NCBI RefSeq assembly: GCF_022565915.1
Contig: NZ_JAJOYX010000005.1
Location: 62,001-126,000 of the forward strand
Direction: 5' to 3'
Source of the DNA: Nesterenkonia sp. LB17
GTDB lineage: Bacteria > Actinomycetota > Actinomycetes > Actinomycetales > Micrococcaceae
DNA: 64,000 nucleotides
Positions 43,250 to 55,825 of the stretch are shown here, piece after piece. Position 1 is the stretch's first letter. Every line of letters starts with the position of its first letter. The position numbers were made by a program, and so were the translations under genes. The notes beneath the pieces are model-generated. The model was not told where the DNA came from. It saw only the letters and a program-made list of their open reading frames with translations, and did no database searches.

Positions 43250-44424
43250 CGGCCGGTCAGCAGCACGCCGCCGCCGTCGACTCCCTTGGCGCCCTGGACG
43301 AAGTCCAGACCGGCACCGGCCACCCGGGCCTCCTCGGGGCGGTAGGCGCTGACCTCACCCATCACCCAGGCGGTCTGGCCCGAGGCGGTCAGGTGAGCCA
43401 GGGCGTCGTCGGCCTTCTCGGCGGAGACCACAGCGATCATGCCCACGCCCAGGTTCAGCGTGCGCTCCAGGTCGGCCTGCGGGACCGAGCCAAGCCGCGC
43501 AATCAGCGAGAACACCGCGGGCCAGGACCAGGTCGAGCGGTCCACGGTCGCCATCAGCCCGGTGGGGAGCACACGCGCCAGGTTCGCCGCGAGACCACCG
43601 CCGGTGACATGGCTGAACCCGCGCACCGGGGCCTCGGGCGAGATCTCAGCCTCGGCGGGGTCGCCGTTGAGTGCGGTGACCAGGTCCAGACAGGGCGTGG
43701 TGTAGAGCCGGGTCGGTTCCAGCAGCTCCTGGCCCAGGGTGCGGCCGAACTCCTCGACCTCGCGCTCATAGCCCCAGCCGGCGGAAGAGACCACGCGGCG
43801 GACCAGCGAGTAGCCGTTCGAGTGGATGCCGGAGGAGGCCATGCCGATGATCACGTCACCGGCACGGACCCGCTCTGGGCCCAGCACGGCGGAGGCGTCG
43901 ACGACGCCGGTGGCCGCGCCCGCGACGTCGTACTCATCGGCTGCCAGCAGTCCGGGGTGCTCGGCGGTCTCGCCGCCGATCAGAGCGGTGCCGGTCTCGG
44001 CGGCGGCCTTGGCGATGCCGGAGACCACCGCAGCGATCCGGGTGGGCTCCACCTTGCCGGTGGCGATGTAGTCGGTCATGAACAGCGGCTTCGCGCCCAT
44101 GACCACGATGTCGTCGACGACCATGCCGACCAGGTCGAAGCCGATGGTGTCGTGGATGTCCATCGCCTGGGCGATGGCGACCTTGGTGCCGACCCCGTCG
44201 GTGGAGGTGGCCAGCAGCGGGCGGGGAAGCCGCTTGAGCTCGCTGGCGTCGTAGAGCCCGGCGAACCCGCCGACCCCGCCGATGACCTGTGGCGTGTGCG
44301 TAGCCTCGATGTGGGCCTTCATCAGCTCCACGGCGCGGTCACCGGCCTCCACGTCGACGCCGGCGGAGGCATAGGTGATCGGAGCGCCGGAGTGGGAATC
44401 GGCGCTGGTGTGTTCAGAAGTCAC
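43237..44424 (-). CDS. purM: Phosphoribosylformylglycinamidine cyclo-ligase
   Basis: 395 residues. ITYASAGVDVEAGDRAVELMK, ATSTDGVGTKVAIAQ and GMASSGIHSNGYSLVRRV are PurM signatures. Fifth step of purine synthesis, FGAM to AIR with ATP. The GTG at 44424 overlaps the purF stop (GTGA). The C-terminal 40 residues past the usual end are somewhat long. Confidence 0.96.
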   Translation of the reverse strand: MTSEHTSADSHSGAPITYASAGVDVEAGDRAVELMKAHIEATHTPQVIGGVGGFAGLYDASELKRLPRPLLATSTDGVGTKVAIAQAMDIHDTIGFDLVGMVVDDIVVMGAKPLFMTDYIATGKVEPTRIAAVVSGIAKAAAETGTALIGGETAEHPGLLAADEYDVAGAATGVVDASAVLGPERVRAGDVIIGMASSGIHSNGYSLVRRVVSSAGWGYEREVEEFGRTLGQELLEPTRLYTTPCLDLVTALNGDPAEAEISPEAPVRGFSHVTGGGLAANLARVLPTGLMATVDRSTWSWPAVFSLIARLGSVPQADLERTLNLGVGMIAVVSAEKADDALAHLTASGQTAWVMGEVSAYRPEEARVAGAGLDFVQGAKGVDGGGVLLTGRYGS

Positions 44425-45977
44425 TTCTTGGCCTCCGCGAGGGGGATCTCGTCGAGTTCGAATTCGGCATCGGGTCCTGGCTCGCAGCCACCGGCCGGAG
44501 TCAGGGTGGAATCGGCGGGCTGTTCCAGCAGCATCTTCCCGCGTCGGCTCTCCGGCGGCAGCTTGATCGGGTAGACCCCGGAGAAGCAGGCGGTGCACAG
44601 CGTGGAGCGCGGCTGCTGGGTGGCGGCGATCATCCCGTCCTCGGAGATGTAGGCCAGCGAATCGGCCCCCACGGCCTGGGTGATCTCGTCCATGGTGGCC
44701 CCGTTGGCGATCAGCTCGGCGCGGGAGGCGAAGTCGATGCCGTAGAAGCAGGGCCACTTCACCGGCGGGGAGGAGATCTTCACGTGGATCTCGGCGGCGC
44801 CGGCCTCCTTGAGCATCCGCACGATGGCGCGCTGGGTGTTGCCGCGCACGATCGAGTCATCGACGACCACCACGCGCTTGCCGCGGACCACGTGGTCCTG
44901 GACGTTGAGCTTGAGCCGGATGCCGAGCTGGCGCAGCGTCTGCGAGGGCTCGATGAAGGTCCGGCCCACATAGGCGTTCTTGATGAAGCCCAGCGCGAAG
45001 GGAAGCCCGGAGGCCTCGGCGTAGCCCACCGCCGCCGGGGTCCCGGATTCTGGGACCGGGATCACGATATCGGCGTCGTGGGTGTCCTCGCGGGCCAGCT
45101 GACGGCCCATCTCGACCCGCGACTCATAGACCGAGCGGCCGTTGATGTTCGCATCCGGGCGGGCCAGGTAGACATATTCGAAGACGCAGCGCGAAGGGGT
45201 CGCGGCGGCGAAGCGGTGGGAGCGCACGCCGTCGGAATCGATGGCGATCAGCTCCCCGGGCTCGATCTCGCGGATCACCGAGGCCCCCACGGTGGCCAGC
45301 GCCGACTGCTCGGAGGCGACCACCCAGCCGCGGGCCAGACGGCCCAGCACCAGCGGGCGCACGCCATGCGGGTCCCGGGCGGCATAGAGCGTGTTCTCAT
45401 TCATGAACACCAGGCAGAACGCGCCCTCCAGGGTGGGCAGCAGGGCCATCGCCTGATCTTCGAGACTGTCCCCGGGCTGTTCCTTCAACAGCGCGGTGAC
45501 CAGCGCCGTGTCGGTGGTGTTGCCCTGGTTGAGCTCGCCGAAGTCGGCTCGTCCGTGGCGTTCGATGATGCGGTCGCGCAGGTCCGCGGAGTTCGTGAGG
45601 TTGCCGTTGTGCCCCAGCGCGACGGTCCCGTGCGGGGTGTCCCCGAGGGTCGGCTGGGCGTTGGACCACTGGCTGGCTCCGGTGGTGGAGTATCGGCAGT
45701 GTCCGACGGCGATGTGCCCGGTCAGCGAGTTGAGCGTGGACTCGTCGAAGACCTGGGAGACCAGGCCGAGGTCCTTATAGACCCGGATGCTCTTGCCGTC
45801 GGAGGCAGCGATCCCGGCGGACTCCTGGCCGCGGTGCTGCAGCGCGTAGAGCCCGTAATAGGCCAGTTTGGAGACTTCCTCCCCGGGGGCCCAGACGCCG
45901 AAGACTCCGCATTCGTCCTGCGGCAGCGGGTCCTCGTCGAGGAGATTGAAGTTCAGCTGACCATCATTGTGGGCCAT
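44421..45977 (-). CDS. purF: Amidophosphoribosyltransferase
   Basis: 518 residues. Short propeptide MAHNDGQLNFNLLDEDPLPQ-DE then nucleophile Cys23 (CGVFGVWAPG) of the Ntn glutaminase. PRPP-binding VVVVDDSIVRGNTQ, and Fe-S cysteines in PCFYGIDFASR and LCTACFSG as in the B. subtilis-type enzyme. Catalyses the first committed step, PRPP plus glutamine to phosphoribosylamine. The ATG at 45977 is preceded by GAGAGGAC and lies inside the end of the upstream membrane-protein gene. Confidence 0.97.
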   Translation of the reverse strand: MAHNDGQLNFNLLDEDPLPQDECGVFGVWAPGEEVSKLAYYGLYALQHRGQESAGIAASDGKSIRVYKDLGLVSQVFDESTLNSLTGHIAVGHCRYSTTGASQWSNAQPTLGDTPHGTVALGHNGNLTNSADLRDRIIERHGRADFGELNQGNTTDTALVTALLKEQPGDSLEDQAMALLPTLEGAFCLVFMNENTLYAARDPHGVRPLVLGRLARGWVVASEQSALATVGASVIREIEPGELIAIDSDGVRSHRFAAATPSRCVFEYVYLARPDANINGRSVYESRVEMGRQLAREDTHDADIVIPVPESGTPAAVGYAEASGLPFALGFIKNAYVGRTFIEPSQTLRQLGIRLKLNVQDHVVRGKRVVVVDDSIVRGNTQRAIVRMLKEAGAAEIHVKISSPPVKWPCFYGIDFASRAELIANGATMDEITQAVGADSLAYISEDGMIAATQQPRSTLCTACFSGVYPIKLPPESRRGKMLLEQPADSTLTPAGGCEPGPDAEFELDEIPLAEAKK

Positions 45978-46287
45978 TCGCAGAAGTCCTCTCTGCAGAG
46001 TCGATCTTCTGCAGGTCATAAGTGCGGGTGCGCTTCCGTGAGCGCCAGTCGATGAAGAGCCAGGTCACGGCGCCCAGGGCCAGCCCTGGCATCGCGAAGG
46101 CGACGGTGAGATATCCCAGCGAACCGCGGAGCGAATAGTCGTCCGCGGGGCCGGTGACCAGCACCACGACGACGGCGGCCACAACTGCCGCCAACACTCC
46201 TGCGATGAGGAAGGGGCTCAGCCTGGGGGTAGGACGAACGGTCACCTGCCGACGCTCCGACTCGCCCGTCTGCTCGCGTGAAGACAT
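45964..46287 (-). CDS. Small two-helix membrane protein upstream of purF
   Basis: 107 residues with two hydrophobic helices (about 26-46 and 58-80) and a basic segment WRSRKRTRTYDLQK after the second. The end overlaps purF by 14 bases. A membrane protein of this kind is commonly found in front of purF in Micrococcales; its function is unknown. Confidence 0.78.
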   Translation of the reverse strand: MSSREQTGESERRQVTVRPTPRLSPFLIAGVLAAVVAAVVVVLVTGPADDYSLRGSLGYLTVAFAMPGLALGAVTWLFIDWRSRKRTRTYDLQKIDSAERTSANGPQ

Positions 46288-48298: not shown

Positions 48299-49375
48299 TC
48301 AGAGGCGTTCGAGCAGCGCGGGGGCCAGGCGGATGCTGCCCACCTGCTCCGCGGCGAGTCCTCCGGTGATCGGCTTGACGATCTTGCGCAGCACCGGGCC
48401 CAGAGCGTCGAGCTCGATCACCCCGCGGGCGGCCAGCAGGCTCAGCGCGACAAGGTTCGTGGCGCGGGAGGATCCGTCGAGGACCTTGACCGCGGCGGCG
48501 GTGCCGTCCGGGGCCGCGACCACCAGGACGCCCTCGGCGCCGAGCTTCGCGGTCAGGCCCAGCTCTTCGAGCACCACGGTGTTGGCCTCGCCGCGGCCGT
48601 GCACCGCCCAGGGGTAGTCGAGCATCGCCTGGTTCACGGTGAACGCGTGGACCTCGGCGTCGCGGCGCGAGGTGGAGGCGGCCAGCTTGGAGAATCCGCG
48701 GGCCAGTCCGGTGAGTGAGAGCGCCGGGGCGGGGGCTCCGCAGCCGTCGATCCCGACCACGGTCGGCTCCTCGCCGCAGTATTCGGTGATCACGTCCATG
48801 ATCACCCGCTGCAGCGGGTGGGAACGCTCGAGGTAGGTGTTGAGTCGCCAGCCGTTGGTCCGGGTGGCGGCGAGGAACGCGACATGCTTGCCGGAGCAGT
48901 TGAAGGCCAGCGGCGTCTCGGTCTTGCCGGCCTCCAGATGCACGCGCAGGTCATGGTTGCGGGAGGGCCAGGCCGACGGGCATTTCAGCGCCGACTCGTC
49001 CAGGCCCTCGGCGGCGAGGATGCTCGCGGCGAGCTCCTGGTGCTTGCGCGAGCCCACATGGGAGCCGCAGGCCAGGGCGACCGCCTCCGGTGAGATCAGC
49101 GCGCCGGAGCGCAGCGAGGCGATGGCCTGGAAGGGCTTCAGCGTGGAGCGCGGGAACATCAGCCGCTCGGGAGCGCCGATGGACTCCAGCACCGCACCGT
49201 CAGGTCCCACCACCACGGCGGAGCCGATGTGCCGGGACTCGACGACGCCGGCGCGGGTCACCACTGCCAGTTCGGCCGATTCCGCCACCGAGGCCGCGTG
49301 CAGGTCCTGCTGTTCGGCGGATCCGGGGAGGGGCGGCACCGAGGGTGCTTCGGCAGAGAGGCGCGCATCAGTCAT
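48299..49375 (-). CDS. Class 3 (Rhizobium etli-type) L-asparaginase
   Basis: 358 residues. The serine-lysine motif PRSTLKPFQA and CSGKHVAFL are characteristic of the third asparaginase class, unrelated to E. coli AnsA/B. Converts asparagine to aspartate and ammonia in the cytoplasm. Divergent from purDC with a 78-base gap. The N-terminal 35 residues are a variable tail. Confidence 0.88.
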   Translation of the reverse strand: MTDARLSAEAPSVPPLPGSAEQQDLHAASVAESAELAVVTRAGVVESRHIGSAVVVGPDGAVLESIGAPERLMFPRSTLKPFQAIASLRSGALISPEAVALACGSHVGSRKHQELAASILAAEGLDESALKCPSAWPSRNHDLRVHLEAGKTETPLAFNCSGKHVAFLAATRTNGWRLNTYLERSHPLQRVIMDVITEYCGEEPTVVGIDGCGAPAPALSLTGLARGFSKLAASTSRRDAEVHAFTVNQAMLDYPWAVHGRGEANTVVLEELGLTAKLGAEGVLVVAAPDGTAAAVKVLDGSSRATNLVALSLLAARGVIELDALGPVLRKIVKPITGGLAAEQVGSIRLAPALLERL

Positions 49376-49453: not shown

Positions 49454-51733
49454 GTGAAGGTACTTGTAGTCGGCCCCGGAGGCCGCGAGCACGCCATCGT
49501 CCGAGCACTGCTGCGCGATGAAGCAGTCACCACCGTGGAGGCCGCGCCGGGCAACGCCGGCATCGCAGCGCAGGTCCGCTGCCACAGCGTCGACGCCCAG
49601 GACGGGGCCGCGGTGGCAGCGCTCGCCGTCGCCGGCGGCTTCGACCTGGTGGTCATCGGTCCCGAGGCGCCGCTGGCCGCAGGAGTGGCCGACGCCGTCC
49701 GCGAGGCAGGGATCCCGGCCTTCGGGCCCTCCGCTTCCGCCGCGCGGCTGGAAGCCTCCAAGGCCTTCGCCAAGGAGATCATGGCCGCCGCCGAGGTGCC
49801 CACCGCCGGAGCGGTGCACGTCAGCGACCTCGCCGCGGCGCAAGACGCCGTCGACCGGTTCGGCGCGCCCTATGTCGTCAAGGACGACGGGCTCGCCGCC
49901 GGCAAGGGCGTGGTGGTCACCGAGGACCGCGCCGAGGCGCTGGCCCACGCCCAGGCCTGTTTCGCCGCCGGCGGCTCGGTGGTCATCGAGGAGTTCCTCG
50001 ACGGACCCGAGGTCTCGCTCTTCGTCCTCTCCGACGGGGTGAACCTGGTGCCGCTGTCCCCGGCGCAGGACTTCAAACGCATCTTCAACGACGACGCCGG
50101 CCCCAACACCGGCGGCATGGGCGCCTACACCCCGCTGGACTGGTTGACCGGGTACACCGAGACCGACGCCGCCGGCGCCCAGCGCGACTTCGTGCAGATC
50201 GTGGTGGACACCGTCGCCGCCCCGACCCTGGCCGAGATGTCCCGCCGCGGCACCCCCTTCGTCGGGGTGCTCTACTGCGGGCTGGCCGTCACCTCCCGCG
50301 GGGTCCGGGTCATCGAGTTCAACGCCCGCTTCGGCGACCCCGAGACCCAGGCGGTGCTCGAACGCCTGGCCACACCGCTGGGTCAGCTGCTGCTGGACTG
50401 CGCCACCGGCTCGCTCGGCCGCGCCCGCACCCTTGACTGGGCGCAGGGCTACGCCGCCGACGTCGTGATGGCCGCGGAGAACTACCCGGAGACCCCGCGC
50501 AGGGGTGACGTGATCACCGGCACCGCGCAGGCCGAGAACCTCGACGGCGTGGCAGTGCTGCACGCCGGCACCGCCGCAGACGACCAGGGCCGGCTGACCA
50601 CCGACGGCGGGCGGGTGCTCGCCGTCGTCGGCACCGGTGACTCGCTGGCTGAGGCTGTGCAGCGCGCCTACGCCGGGGTGCAGGAGCTCTCCTGGGAGGG
50701 CGAGCAGCACCGCACCGACATCGCCGCGAAGGCGCTCGCCGGAGAGATCCAGCTCCGCAGTGACGTCCAGCTGGACGCGGGACCGAGCGAGTCGGCCGCG
50801 CGCCTCCCGGTGCACCCCGCCGGCGAAACAGCCGACCAGTCAGCCGAAGACCTGCCCGGCTGGGTGCACGTGTCCTCCGGGAAGGTCCGCGAGCTCTACC
50901 GGCCCGCCCCCGGATCCCCCTGGGACGGTCAGGACGTGATCCTGATGGTCGCCAGCGACCGGATCAGCGCCTACGACCACGTGCTCTCCAGCCCCATCCC
51001 CGACAAGGGCATCATCCTCACCCAGCTCAGCCTGTGGTGGTTCGATCAGCTCGAGGCCGCCGGGATCTCGCATCACGTGGTCTCGGTCGAGGTGCCCGAA
51101 GCTGTCGCCGGGCGCGCGATGATCTGCCGGAACCTGCAGATGATCCAGGCCGAATGCATCGCCCGCGGCTACCTCACCGGGTCCGGGCTCGCCGATTATC
51201 GGGAGACCGGCGGCGTGACCGGGCTGGTGCTGCCGGAGGGCCTCACCGACGGCTCCGCGCTGCCCGAGCCGATCTTCACCCCGTCCTCGAAGGCCGCCCA
51301 GGGTGATCACGACGAGAACATCAGCTTCGAGACGCTCACCGAGACCGTGGGCGTGCAGGTGGCGACGCAGCTGCGCGACGCGACGCTGCGGATCTACGTC
51401 TTGGCCGAGGAGATCTGCCGCGAGGCCGGGGTGATCCTGGCGGACACCAAGCTCGAGTTCGGCTTCGACCCCGGCGGCGCGCTCACCGTGGCCGATGAGG
51501 TCCTGACCCCTGACTCATCACGCTTCTGGCCCGCCGAGAGCTGGGAGCCCGGGGCCGCACAGCCCTCCTTCGACAAGCAGTTCGTCCGCGACTGGCTGAC
51601 CTCGGCCGCGTCCGGATGGGACCGCAGCGCCGGGCAGGCACCGCCGGCGCTTCCGCAGGAGGTCATCGGCGCCACACGACAGCGCTACCTGGACGCCTAC
51701 CAGCGCCTCACCGGGACCGAACTGGTCTTCTGA
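49454..51733 (+). CDS. PurD-PurC fusion: GAR synthetase plus SAICAR synthetase in one chain
   Basis: A single uninterrupted 759-residue frame. Residues 1-430 are a full PurD (phosphoribosylamine-glycine ligase): VLVVGPGGREHAIVRAL, ATP-grasp VVKDDGLAAGKGVVV, EEFLDGPEVSLF, GGMGAYTP and the closing HRTDIAAKAL. Residues 431-470 form an acidic Pro/Ala/Ser linker. Residues 471-759 are a full PurC (SAICAR synthetase): SGKVRELY, SDRISAYDHV, ECIARGYLTGS and the signature LADTKLEFG. The two enzymes catalyse the second and the seventh/eighth step of purine synthesis and are not consecutive. In relatives they are usually separate neighbouring genes. GTG start at 49454. Confidence 0.93.
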   Translation: MKVLVVGPGGREHAIVRALLRDEAVTTVEAAPGNAGIAAQVRCHSVDAQDGAAVAALAVAGGFDLVVIGPEAPLAAGVADAVREAGIPAFGPSASAARLEASKAFAKEIMAAAEVPTAGAVHVSDLAAAQDAVDRFGAPYVVKDDGLAAGKGVVVTEDRAEALAHAQACFAAGGSVVIEEFLDGPEVSLFVLSDGVNLVPLSPAQDFKRIFNDDAGPNTGGMGAYTPLDWLTGYTETDAAGAQRDFVQIVVDTVAAPTLAEMSRRGTPFVGVLYCGLAVTSRGVRVIEFNARFGDPETQAVLERLATPLGQLLLDCATGSLGRARTLDWAQGYAADVVMAAENYPETPRRGDVITGTAQAENLDGVAVLHAGTAADDQGRLTTDGGRVLAVVGTGDSLAEAVQRAYAGVQELSWEGEQHRTDIAAKALAGEIQLRSDVQLDAGPSESAARLPVHPAGETADQSAEDLPGWVHVSSGKVRELYRPAPGSPWDGQDVILMVASDRISAYDHVLSSPIPDKGIILTQLSLWWFDQLEAAGISHHVVSVEVPEAVAGRAMICRNLQMIQAECIARGYLTGSGLADYRETGGVTGLVLPEGLTDGSALPEPIFTPSSKAAQGDHDENISFETLTETVGVQVATQLRDATLRIYVLAEEICREAGVILADTKLEFGFDPGGALTVADEVLTPDSSRFWPAESWEPGAAQPSFDKQFVRDWLTSAASGWDRSAGQAPPALPQEVIGATRQRYLDAYQRLTGTELVF

Positions 51734-51809: not shown

Positions 51810-52985
51810 TCAGCGGTCGGTGCACTGCCCGGTGGAGACGGTCTCGGAGTAGCGATCCGGATCGGTCAGAACATCCCCTGCCTGGTCCGCGGTGATCGCG
51901 AAGCCGACGTTGCTGCCCTCCACGGCGCGGGCGAACACGACGCCGGCCACGTCCCCGGCCCGATCGATCAACGGCCCGCCCGAGTTGCCCTGCCGGACAT
52001 CGGCGCTGAGCTGGAAGATCTCCAGGGTGCTCGGCGAGCTGCCGTAGATGTTGTTCACCTGGGAGACGTCGCGCGCCTGGATCACCGCACTGCCCGCGGA
52101 GAACGGCCCGCCCGCGGGGTGTCCCATCACGTAGCCCGAATCTCCGACGTCGACCCCCTCGCTCATCTGAAGCGGCGCCACATCGAGGCCGTCCACTGCG
52201 ATCAGGGCCAGGTCGGAGGCGGGATCGAAGTGCACCGCGCGGCCGGTGAGCACCTCGCCGTCCGGCATCTCCACCGCAGGCTCGGCCACACCGGCGATGA
52301 CATGGGCGTTGGTCACCACCCGGGTGGGGGAGACGGCGAAGCCGGACCCCGACTGGGACTGCCCACACTGCTCCGCGACCCCGGTGATCCTCCCCACCGA
52401 GGCGGCGGAGGCGACGCCGGCGTCATTGAGGTCCTGGTTCTCCGGCAGCTCCGCAGGCTCGGGCACCAGCTGTGCGAGCTCCGGGATGTCGGAGTCCAGC
52501 ACCGCGGAGCGGACCTGGGCGAACCAGGACTCTGCCTGATCGGGCACAGCGGAGTCGACGGTGCTCAGCACGGTGGACTGCTTCATCGCCTGGTTCACTG
52601 CGGGGAAGCCCATGGCGGAGATCGAGAAGGAGAGCAGCGCGATCACGAACACGGCGACCACCACGTTGACCACACCGCCGACCAGCGAGCTCAGGCCGCG
52701 CACCGCGCGGGACTTGAACATCCTCTGGATCTCGGCCCCGGCGGCGGATCCCAGCCCGTGCCCGGCGGCCACCAGCACGATGGCGGCGGCGAGCACCGCG
52801 ATCACCCGCCAGAGCGGATCAGGGACCCAGGATGCGACCAGCGGGATCGCGAAGAACGCCGCGGTCGCGCCGATGAGGAATCCGAAGACACCGCCGAGGG
52901 TGGCCCAGACGCCCCTGCGCAGGCCTGCGATGAGGAAGCCCAGAAGCACCACCACCAAGATCACGTCGAGTATGGTGATTCCCAT
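51810..52985 (-). CDS. MarP-type membrane serine protease (CvpA plus trypsin-like)
   Basis: 391 residues. Four N-terminal helices of CvpA type (about 5-120) anchor a trypsin-like protease with the triad His in TNAHVIAG, Asp in ASDLALI and Ser in QGNSGGPL. A Cys pair (CGQSQ and TGQC) frames the protease, as in MarP, where a disulfide controls activity. Homologues in mycobacteria maintain internal pH under acid stress by processing peptidoglycan hydrolases. Divergent from the GlxR-like gene. Confidence 0.92.
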   Translation of the reverse strand: MGITILDVILVVVLLGFLIAGLRRGVWATLGGVFGFLIGATAAFFAIPLVASWVPDPLWRVIAVLAAAIVLVAAGHGLGSAAGAEIQRMFKSRAVRGLSSLVGGVVNVVVAVFVIALLSFSISAMGFPAVNQAMKQSTVLSTVDSAVPDQAESWFAQVRSAVLDSDIPELAQLVPEPAELPENQDLNDAGVASAASVGRITGVAEQCGQSQSGSGFAVSPTRVVTNAHVIAGVAEPAVEMPDGEVLTGRAVHFDPASDLALIAVDGLDVAPLQMSEGVDVGDSGYVMGHPAGGPFSAGSAVIQARDVSQVNNIYGSSPSTLEIFQLSADVRQGNSGGPLIDRAGDVAGVVFARAVEGSNVGFAITADQAGDVLTDPDRYSETVSTGQCTDR

Positions 52986-54030: not shown

Positions 54031-55362
54031 CTACTCCCCGGTGACCCGTGAGGGCGGATAGAAGCGGAGGAACTTGCGCACCAGGGAGGCCTGCGCGGCC
54101 AGCAGGAGCGCCACCCGGCGCGGGCTGCGATCAGCCGCGTAGAAGAACGGGTTCCGCGCACCGCCCGAGCGCAGGATCCCTGCGACCCGGCGTCGTCGCT
54201 GCGGGTCAGAGACATACCGGCCGGCCAGCCAGCCCGGCAGCACGGTGTAGACCGTCTCCTGCTGATCCTCCACGCGGGATGTGTCGCCATCGGCTGAGAG
54301 CTCGCCGCGGATGAAGTCCCGCACGTAGTACTCCACCGGATTGTTGCCCGCCCCGGTGATGTAGTAGCTGGAGCGACCCAGCCGGGGATTGAGCTCGAAG
54401 AACTTCGTCTTTCCGTCGCGCGGATCGAATTTCAGGTCGAAGTTCGCGTAACCCACCCAACCCAGCTCGGTGAGCAGCTTCTGCGCCTGATCCACCGCTT
54501 CGGAGTTCTTCGTGGTGAGGATCACCGAAGGGTTGCCCAGCGCGGCGGGGGAGTGATCCTCCACCACGGTCTCGCCCCAGGAGGCGAAGCGGATCACCGA
54601 GTTCTGATCGGCGTAGCAGGTCAGCACCCGCATGTTCTGGTCATCGCCCGGGACCTCCTCCTGCACCACGAAGCGCGCCCGGTACCCGGCCGCGTGGACC
54701 TTGGCGAAGAGATCGGCCAGATCCTCGGAAGTCTCCACCCGGTGCACTTTGTGCTTGCCCTCGAACTCGGTCCAATACCAGGCCGTGACATCAGCAGGCT
54801 TCGCCCATACCGGAAAGCTGAGATCCAGCGGGAGCTGGGTGTCCAGAGCGGCGCCGAAGTCCACCACCCGGGTGACCGGGTGATCCACGCCGAGCCTCTC
54901 GGCCAGCGCGGTGAAGTTGTCCTTGACGGTGGCCGCGTCGAAACGGGCCCGGTCCACATAGGGCACGACGACGTCGTCGCCCAGGTCCTCAGGGTGCGCC
55001 TCGCGCAGCTCGATGATCGCCTGCACGGTGGAGTCGATCGCGCCCAGCAGCAGGATCGGGATCCCCTGATCGCGCAGCCGCCGGATCGGTGCGAGGTTCA
55101 GCCCGGTGCGCACATGCTCCATCACCGTGCCGTTCTCGATCTCCAGGTGGGTGATGATCTTCGAATGCGCGATCATCCACATCTGGTGCTTCGAGAGCAC
55201 CAGCGACGTGATGCCGTAGGCCTCATGGAAGGCCCGTGCTGCGCCATAGGCTCCGGCGTCGCCGCCGATGATCACCGGGGCGAAGCCGACGGCGGCCCAG
55301 CGGCGCTCCTGGTCCTGCCAGCGTCTGTCCTGGGTGAAGACCGGGGAGGCCTCAGCGGACAT
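54031..55362 (-). CDS. ATP-grasp carboxylate-amine ligase
   Basis: 443 residues. ATP-grasp type with VVQEEVPGDDQNMRVLTCYAD, VGYANFDLKFDPRDGKTKFFELNPRLGRSSYY as magnesium/ATP-binding region (Glu and Asn in ELNPR). The N-terminal part APVIIGGDAGAYGAARAFHEAYGI is a pre-ATP-grasp domain. Similar proteins join an amino acid to a carboxylate, such as D-aspartate ligases in peptidoglycan cross-bridge formation; the substrates here are unknown. The ATG at 55362 overlaps the RidA gene end by 11 bases, so the longer frame to 55566 is rejected. Confidence 0.82.
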   Translation of the reverse strand: MSAEASPVFTQDRRWQDQERRWAAVGFAPVIIGGDAGAYGAARAFHEAYGITSLVLSKHQMWMIAHSKIITHLEIENGTVMEHVRTGLNLAPIRRLRDQGIPILLLGAIDSTVQAIIELREAHPEDLGDDVVVPYVDRARFDAATVKDNFTALAERLGVDHPVTRVVDFGAALDTQLPLDLSFPVWAKPADVTAWYWTEFEGKHKVHRVETSEDLADLFAKVHAAGYRARFVVQEEVPGDDQNMRVLTCYADQNSVIRFASWGETVVEDHSPAALGNPSVILTTKNSEAVDQAQKLLTELGWVGYANFDLKFDPRDGKTKFFELNPRLGRSSYYITGAGNNPVEYYVRDFIRGELSADGDTSRVEDQQETVYTVLPGWLAGRYVSDPQRRRRVAGILRSGGARNPFFYAADRSPRRVALLLAAQASLVRKFLRFYPPSRVTGE

Positions 55363-55825
55363 GGGCGATGAGGTCGACTTCCACCGGGGTGTCCAGCGGC
55401 AGCACCGACACGCCCACGGCGCTGCGGGCATGCTGCCCGGCGTCGCCGAAGGCCGCACCGAGCAGCTCCGAGGCGCCGTTGAGCACCTTGGGCTGACCGG
55501 TGAAGCTCGGAACCGAGGCGACGAAGCCGCCCACCTTGGCGATCCGGGTGATCCGGTCGAGATCACCCACGGCCGCCTTCAGCGCGCCGATGCAGTTCAG
55601 CGCACACTGCCGGGCGAGCTCGTAGGCCTGGTCTTCTGAGACCTCGGCGCCGACCTTGCCGGTCAACGGCAGCGCGCCGTCGACGAAGGGCAGCTGCCCG
55701 GAGACGTAGACCACGCCGTCGGCGATGACCGCCGGCTGATAGGAGGCGACCGGGGGGACCACCTCGGGAACGCTCAGGCCGAGTTCGGCCAGGCGCGTTT
55801 CAACTGCAGAGATCTGCTCAGCCAT
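55352..55825 (-). CDS. RidA-family enamine/imine deaminase
   Basis: 157 residues. VVYVSGQLPFVDG, RQCALNCIGALKAAVGDLDRITRI and the C-terminal VEVDLIAHV fit the YjgF/YER057c/UK114 (RidA) trimers that hydrolyse reactive enamines from PLP enzymes. This is the longer actinobacterial type. In an operon between the DUF4177-like gene and the ATP-grasp ligase, ten bases after the former. Confidence 0.9.
   Translation of the reverse strand: MAEQISAVETRLAELGLSVPEVVPPVASYQPAVIADGVVYVSGQLPFVDGALPLTGKVGAEVSEDQAYELARQCALNCIGALKAAVGDLDRITRIAKVGGFVASVPSFTGQPKVLNGASELLGAAFGDAGQHARSAVGVSVLPLDTPVEVDLIAHVR

Follow-up and report, generated by a model that had tools for sequence, protein, structure and literature searches.

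The analysis identified a genuine PurD-PurC fusion in Nesterenkonia sp. LB17, in which two complete predicted domains lie in one uninterrupted reading frame of the window (i.e., the whole 64,000-nucleotide [nt] stretch of DNA that was analyzed). The fusion is ordinary among the relatives of this organism, and it is real but little described in the open-access literature. We consider it very probable that its product is a single chain of ~80 kDa, comprising independently folded PurD and PurC parts on a disposable tether, which arose by repeated joining of adjacent purD and purC genes and is near-neutral or mildly useful.

The fused frame and its two domains

The frame (window positions 49454-51733, plus strand) encodes 759 amino acids (aa), starts with GTG, ends with TGA, and contains no internal stop. 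Residues 2-428 matched the NCBIfam model TIGR00877 (purD) over model positions 2-424 of 425, at 448.9 bits versus a cut-off of 288, and residues 464-756 matched NF010568 (purC) over model positions 7-295 of 297, at 380.3 bits (cut-off, 251). Likewise, residues 473-756 matched a second purC model, TIGR00081, at 229.4 bits (cut-off, 189.9). The Pfam domains follow one another in the order GARS_N, GARS_A, GARS_C, and SAICAR_synt, with the three GARS domains exceeding their gathering scores, and PDB relatives match the two halves separately. The PurD part also carries RFGDPE at residue 292, which corresponds to the conserved R[LF]GDPE motif given for PurD in a passage of PMC3261824. An alternative, longer open reading frame of 834 aa begins upstream at 49229; because the PurD match starts at residue 2 when counted from 49454, the latter position is the likely start. 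The sequence-only reading had proposed one frame with a complete PurD, an acidic linker, and a complete PurC, and the NCBIfam and Pfam matches over their cut-offs bear this out. Its placement of a 40-residue linker and of PurC from residue 471 was about right, our own estimate being a mildly acidic linker of ~36 aa (Table 1). As a separate observation, an insertion of ~10-11 residues following GAYTPLDWL (PurD residues ~231-245) was present in all four aligned Nesterenkonia rows (P0001, L012, L013, and L014) and absent from the five fused PurD sequences of other genera in that alignment.

Table 1. Parts of the fused gene and neighboring genes, in window coordinates
Feature	Position	Strand	Residues, basis or arrangement
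PurD (GAR synthetase) part	49454..50743	+	residues 1-430, GTG start; TIGR00877 and Pfam GARS_N/A/C
Linker	50744..50851	+	residues ~431-466; pLDDT, NG86 ratio, start codon scan
PurC (SAICAR synthetase) part	50852..51730	+	residues 467-759; NF010568 and TIGR00081
TGA stop codon	51731..51733	+	
Asparaginase II	48299-49375	minus	upstream neighbor, divergent
MarP-type protease	51810-52985	minus	downstream neighbor, convergent
purF	44421-46019	minus	~3.4 kb upstream of purDC

An AlphaFold2 model built on a shallow alignment of nine fused sequences (mean pLDDT, 79.9; pTM, 0.56) showed two folded parts, each predicted with moderate to high confidence. Its pLDDT values fell below 50 at residues 433-463, as well as in several stretches inside the domains (147-151, 209-220, 598-603, and 611-619). 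Such a model agrees with two domains that are independent of each other and connected by a flexible tether, itself predicted to be disordered. This linker has a net charge of -4 over 33 aa (residues 431-463), and its DNA is 72% G+C. When the window gene was compared with those of the four nearest species, the NG86 ratio was 0.17-0.27 for PurD and 0.14-0.19 for PurC, as opposed to 0.40-0.81 for the linker, a rough figure given that it stems from 19-26 codons with high silent divergence. These ratios suggest that both halves are under purifying selection and that the tether drifts far more freely. Consistently, linkers in Nesterenkonia vary from 4 to 58 aa (a gap of 12-174 nt), and neither a general linker motif nor a conserved linker length was found among the 22 fused junctions of the genus, which makes a precisely built scaffold or channel less likely. 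Only in the sister species L006-L009 was part of the linker conserved (GVRSTELPPSSEDPP), whereas the linkers of the other species drift; this stretch is common to the four-species subclade alone, and a conserved motif was therefore rejected as a general feature.

In the window genome (2.82 Mb in 10 contigs, 99.71% complete), the PurD-PurC protein appeared as one match. Of seven matches to the purD family, one exceeded the cut-off, and the purC family had a single match, such that the family profile search of this 99.71% complete genome yielded no separate purD or purC over cut-off elsewhere. With a single purD and a single purC found, the fused chain would have to supply both activities if the organism makes purines de novo. 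Since the upstream gene is divergent and the downstream gene convergent, purDC stands alone on its own strand between its neighbors. Further along the minus strand, a 511-aa frame at 54031-55566 had no NCBIfam match at 1e-10 and resembled ATP-grasp proteins only weakly (CPSase_L_D2, 20.9 bits); it overlaps a RidA/YjgF-like gene at 55352-55825, and its true start is thus probably further in.

Fused and split genes among relatives

All 30 Nesterenkonia genomes contained a match, and the purD-purC junction was fused in 22 and split in 8 of them. The four nearest species, whose proteins are 89-90% identical to that of the window, are all fused, with linkers that differ from the window's. In nine fused Nesterenkonia, an identical 12-nt gap separates the domain boundaries used, with QLPGW two codons beyond it, and the other 13 fused junctions range from 30 to 174 nt, each a multiple of three. 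In contrast, the eight split junctions measure 17 to 92 nt and are all 2 modulo 3. Two of the fused junctions occur in genes with frameshifts, namely, L028, with a frameshift in PurD near residues 57-63, and L030, with frameshifts in both the PurD and PurC parts; the latter genome is 62% complete, and assembly error is likely.

At the level of the family, stop-free joined matches were detected in at least 35 of 395 genomes and in 4 of 32 genera, the 22 Nesterenkonia included; this sample was searched with two queries having different linkers, and fusions whose linkers are very long may have escaped the search. More specifically, 7 of 11 genomes of the Micrococcus-like genus g14 and all four genomes of g11 were fused, and stop-free joins were present in at least 2 of 27 genomes of g6 (one of the 27 had no match, and three junctions were parsed). 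The likeness of g14 to Micrococcus is seen in the junctions of L123 and L162, the latter on a named Micrococcus contig, which are identical. In the order sample (396 genomes), Brevibacterium (g37) was stop-free in 15 of 17 matched genomes, only genomes with a joined match being counted; nine of these 15 junctions were parsed as fused and six come from the search table alone. Genus g81 was fused in two of six. No stop-free joined match occurred outside the order in the class sample (384 genomes, order members included) at E <= 1e-150, a threshold at which weaker fusions, or those with long linkers, would go undetected. Among the matches listed for named genomes, 80 loci comprised 3 fused pairs, all from Brevibacterium, 31 split pairs, and 46 without purC on the stretch examined; these loci were found with two PurD patterns only and do not constitute a census.

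The search of relatives that had been recommended thus recovered the fusion in Nesterenkonia, g14, g11, g6, Brevibacterium, and g81. The earlier claim that purD and purC are normally separate in related genomes is wrong for Nesterenkonia, where 22 of 30 junctions are fused; in the rest of the family, only three other genera of the 32 showed stop-free joins. Nor did the implied rarity survive, as the fusion is common in Nesterenkonia and extends to six or more genera of the order. Two further observations emerged from these samples. In many species of g22, g23, g24, and g10, a single stop separates purD from an in-frame purC, and in g22 a TAA or TAG is directly followed by ATG, i.e., the genes are one base change from fusion, yet split. 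In addition, the Micrococcus-like genome G148 (g14; one contig, 100% complete) lacked any purC match and had no purD match above the cut-off, and since the other 10 of the 11 g14 genomes possess both genes, it is a likely purine auxotroph.

Junction sequences and the history of the fusion

In all eight split Nesterenkonia, a candidate purC start lies out of frame in a 4-nt overlap with the purD stop (ATGA in five, GTGA in three), which suggests that small indels probably switch the fused and split forms. The same overlap was seen in three of three split g14 and two of four split g81, and three overlap species (L015, L017, and L123) have a further candidate purC start slightly downstream. A different trace was found in g6, where the fused linker retains residues of the PurC N terminus of split relatives (RPEHPEFPGHPAPPELPGW in L086 versus RPEHPVFPGHPAPPQLDGW in L088), and likewise in g11, where the linkers of L035 and L036 were compared with the PurC N terminus in L034 and L040 of g23; in-frame loss of the stop would leave such residues behind. 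We considered whether the 4-nt overlap marks fusion-prone genera and rejected this idea. The first outgroup set was biased toward same-frame pairs. A wider set of 100 loci, consisting of the 80 named loci (46 without purC on the stretch examined, 3 fused) and 20 family loci, displayed the overlap at 15 of 51 split junctions; the family loci had been picked from rows with unjoined purD and purC matches, a bias opposite to that of the first set. As 13 of these junctions lie outside Nesterenkonia and Micrococcus, and 2 inside, the association between overlap and fusion has to be tempered: within the order, a 4-nt purD-purC overlap occurs fairly often and is no special mark of the genera prone to fusion.

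A tree of 74 rows required 10 changes of state, 6 of them forced by starred branches. On a tree of 54 rows (29 Nesterenkonia, 10 g14, and 15 outgroup; L030 left out), there were nine changes, with six forced by starred branches and four inside Nesterenkonia. Under a two-state model on the 54-row tree, the probability of the fused state, P(fused), was 0.96-0.98 at the root of Nesterenkonia, and the common ancestor of Nesterenkonia and g14 leaned toward the split state (P[fused], 0.11-0.26). The split Nesterenkonia are all placed inside one clade of 14 (support, 98/99; P[fused] at its root, 0.79-0.88) and, within it, in an inner clade of 12 whose root had a P(fused) of 0.20-0.48. Several fissions, or one fission and later re-fusions, would fit this inner clade, and some of its fused species may be re-fusions. 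A gain-only model was ~2 log units worse than a model with reversal, the treatment of the root differing between the two, and this comparison alone lends mild support to reversal. The junctions provide a stronger argument than the model: the identical 12-nt junction with QLPGW, eight of whose nine species are on the 54-row tree, is spread over the genus, which argues for one ancestral fusion in Nesterenkonia and later fission. From these sequence comparisons, the fused state looks ancestral in Nesterenkonia, and across the order the PurD-PurC fusion seems to have undergone both gains and losses, with several changes of state in all.

Product and possible role of the fused gene

Vertebrates and yeast provide the familiar multifunctional purine enzymes. 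Yeast Ade5,7 is a PurD-PurM protein and, like the protein described here, has PurD inside a multifunctional enzyme, but its partner is PurM and the enzyme is eukaryotic. The same applies to the vertebrate trifunctional GART (steps 2, 3, and 5; PMC10912719, in the passage concerned), in which PurD is joined to PurM and PurN instead of PurC. Conversely, vertebrate PAICS (steps 6 and 7; PMC10912719) resembles our case in having PurC activity in a bifunctional enzyme, although its partner is AIR carboxylase and its steps are consecutive. Two non-consecutive purine enzymes are also combined in the halobacterial PurN-PurH1 fusion (PMC3261824), which is archaeal and involves other enzymes, both folate-using. 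A parallel with the same pair comes from Francisella, where purCD (FTL_0396/FTT_0894) is presented in passages of PMC3796476, PMC2933595, and PMC3660459 as a single gene, whose one locus tag stands for both enzymes. In contrast to the gene described here, its name implies PurC followed by PurD, and these passages convey the arrangement through gene naming, none using "fused" outright. PurCD is listed among the Francisella enzymes needed (PMC13192272), and purCD mutants are mentioned in PMC2675058 and PMC5963219. The name alone proves little, as a Vibrio paper (PMC10930458) uses purCD as a mere label on a PurC protein. Nevertheless, the PurD-PurC pair, in the opposite name order, already has a published precedent in Francisella purCD. 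No paper on a PurD-PurC fusion in actinobacteria was apparent among the matches listed in the open-access literature, and annotators may well have recorded it. Also close are the split purD-purC pairs of Nesterenkonia, g14, and other Micrococcales, which have the same genes in the same order, adjacent or with the 4-nt overlap, and differ in yielding two proteins from two starts.

A single full-length chain is the simplest reading of the frame. That an assembly or sequencing error joined two adjacent genes has next to no probability in our view: the frameshifts of L028 and L030 may be assembly errors, but the fusion recurs in separate genomes of many species, with differing linkers that are all in frame, and the window assembly is nearly complete in 10 contigs. 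A sequencing error or pseudogene was rejected in view of the fused relatives with other linkers together with the purifying selection on both halves. We also regard as very improbable that the fused frame yields two chains, whether because translation starts anew at a GTG close to the PurC boundary or because the linker is cut. The predicted disorder of the linker would suit cutting, and the window has in-frame GTG codons near the boundary at 50810, 50864, and 50870. However, the start codon scan found no Shine-Dalgarno-like site before GTG 50810, and the next two have only a 3- to 4-base, chance-level match upstream. Seven species of the window's clade (L002-L007 and L009) do carry AGGA or AGGAG before an in-frame GTG at the PurC boundary, and a minor separate PurC product may be made in these species. 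On the other hand, the ATG/GTG/TTG scan of the stretch around the junction revealed no such in-frame codon in L024 and L036, so that making PurC on its own in these two would take an unusual start codon or cleavage, and the nine species with just 12 nt between the domain boundaries used offer little to cut.

If full length and active in both parts, the single chain would supply the GAR synthetase and SAICAR synthetase activities of de novo purine synthesis at a fixed 1:1 ratio. In many Micrococcales, purC follows purD head to tail and either abuts or overlaps it, and it is from this arrangement that the fusion would arise, by in-frame loss of the stop, as best seen in g6 and g11, or presumably by a small indel at the 4-nt ATGA/GTGA overlap, where another small indel could part the genes again. 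Such joining would have occurred repeatedly, with the fused form ancestral in Nesterenkonia and the tether probably lengthened later in the window's clade. Channeling and a fixed ratio are discussed as general reasons for fusions in a passage of PMC1963479. The sequence-only reading had doubted channeling, with which we concur, as the steps are non-consecutive; it had instead favored fixed stoichiometry or a purinosome-like scaffold. The fixed 1:1 ratio is the only benefit that follows directly from fusion, and it is compatible with our data, but in split relatives the 4-nt overlaps should already couple PurD and PurC to nearly the same degree, with no fusion needed. The scaffold found no positive support, given a linker of unconstrained length and sequence and the presence of fused and split forms in one genus. 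Selection of the fusion for holding PurD and PurC in one assembly, be it a purinosome-like scaffold or a metabolon, rather than its arising by mere chance, seems to us quite unlikely. In its favor, this pair of enzymes has changed state, split or fused, several times within the order, purCD of Francisella is listed as a single gene, and a passage of PMC10912719 covers proposed bacterial metabolons and the kinetics of PurF-PurD channeling. Weighed against this, the steps of PurD and PurC are not consecutive (PMC10912719), the Nesterenkonia linker varies from 4 to 58 aa with no general motif, split species occur inside the same genera, the split Nesterenkonia looking at least partly secondary, and adjacency alone makes purD and purC easy to fuse. 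We infer that the fusion is near-neutral or mildly useful for co-synthesis, and prefer this to a channel or scaffold given the distance between the steps in the pathway, the lack of constraint on the tether, and the coexistence of fused with split species.

A bolder proposal is that selection for strict co-synthesis of steps 2 and 7/8, or for their co-location, makes Micrococcales switch purD-purC back and forth between a 4-nt overlap with translational coupling and a full fusion. We hold this to be unlikely; if true, nature would have provided, in the purD-purC pair, an experiment on a minimal assembly of purine enzymes in bacteria. For annotation, the finding carries a warning, as a lone PurD or PurC label would hide the second activity in fused genomes. 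Close relatives, some of them congeneric, carry the same enzymes either fused or on overlapping genes, and would allow the effect of fusion on expression and flux to be compared directly.
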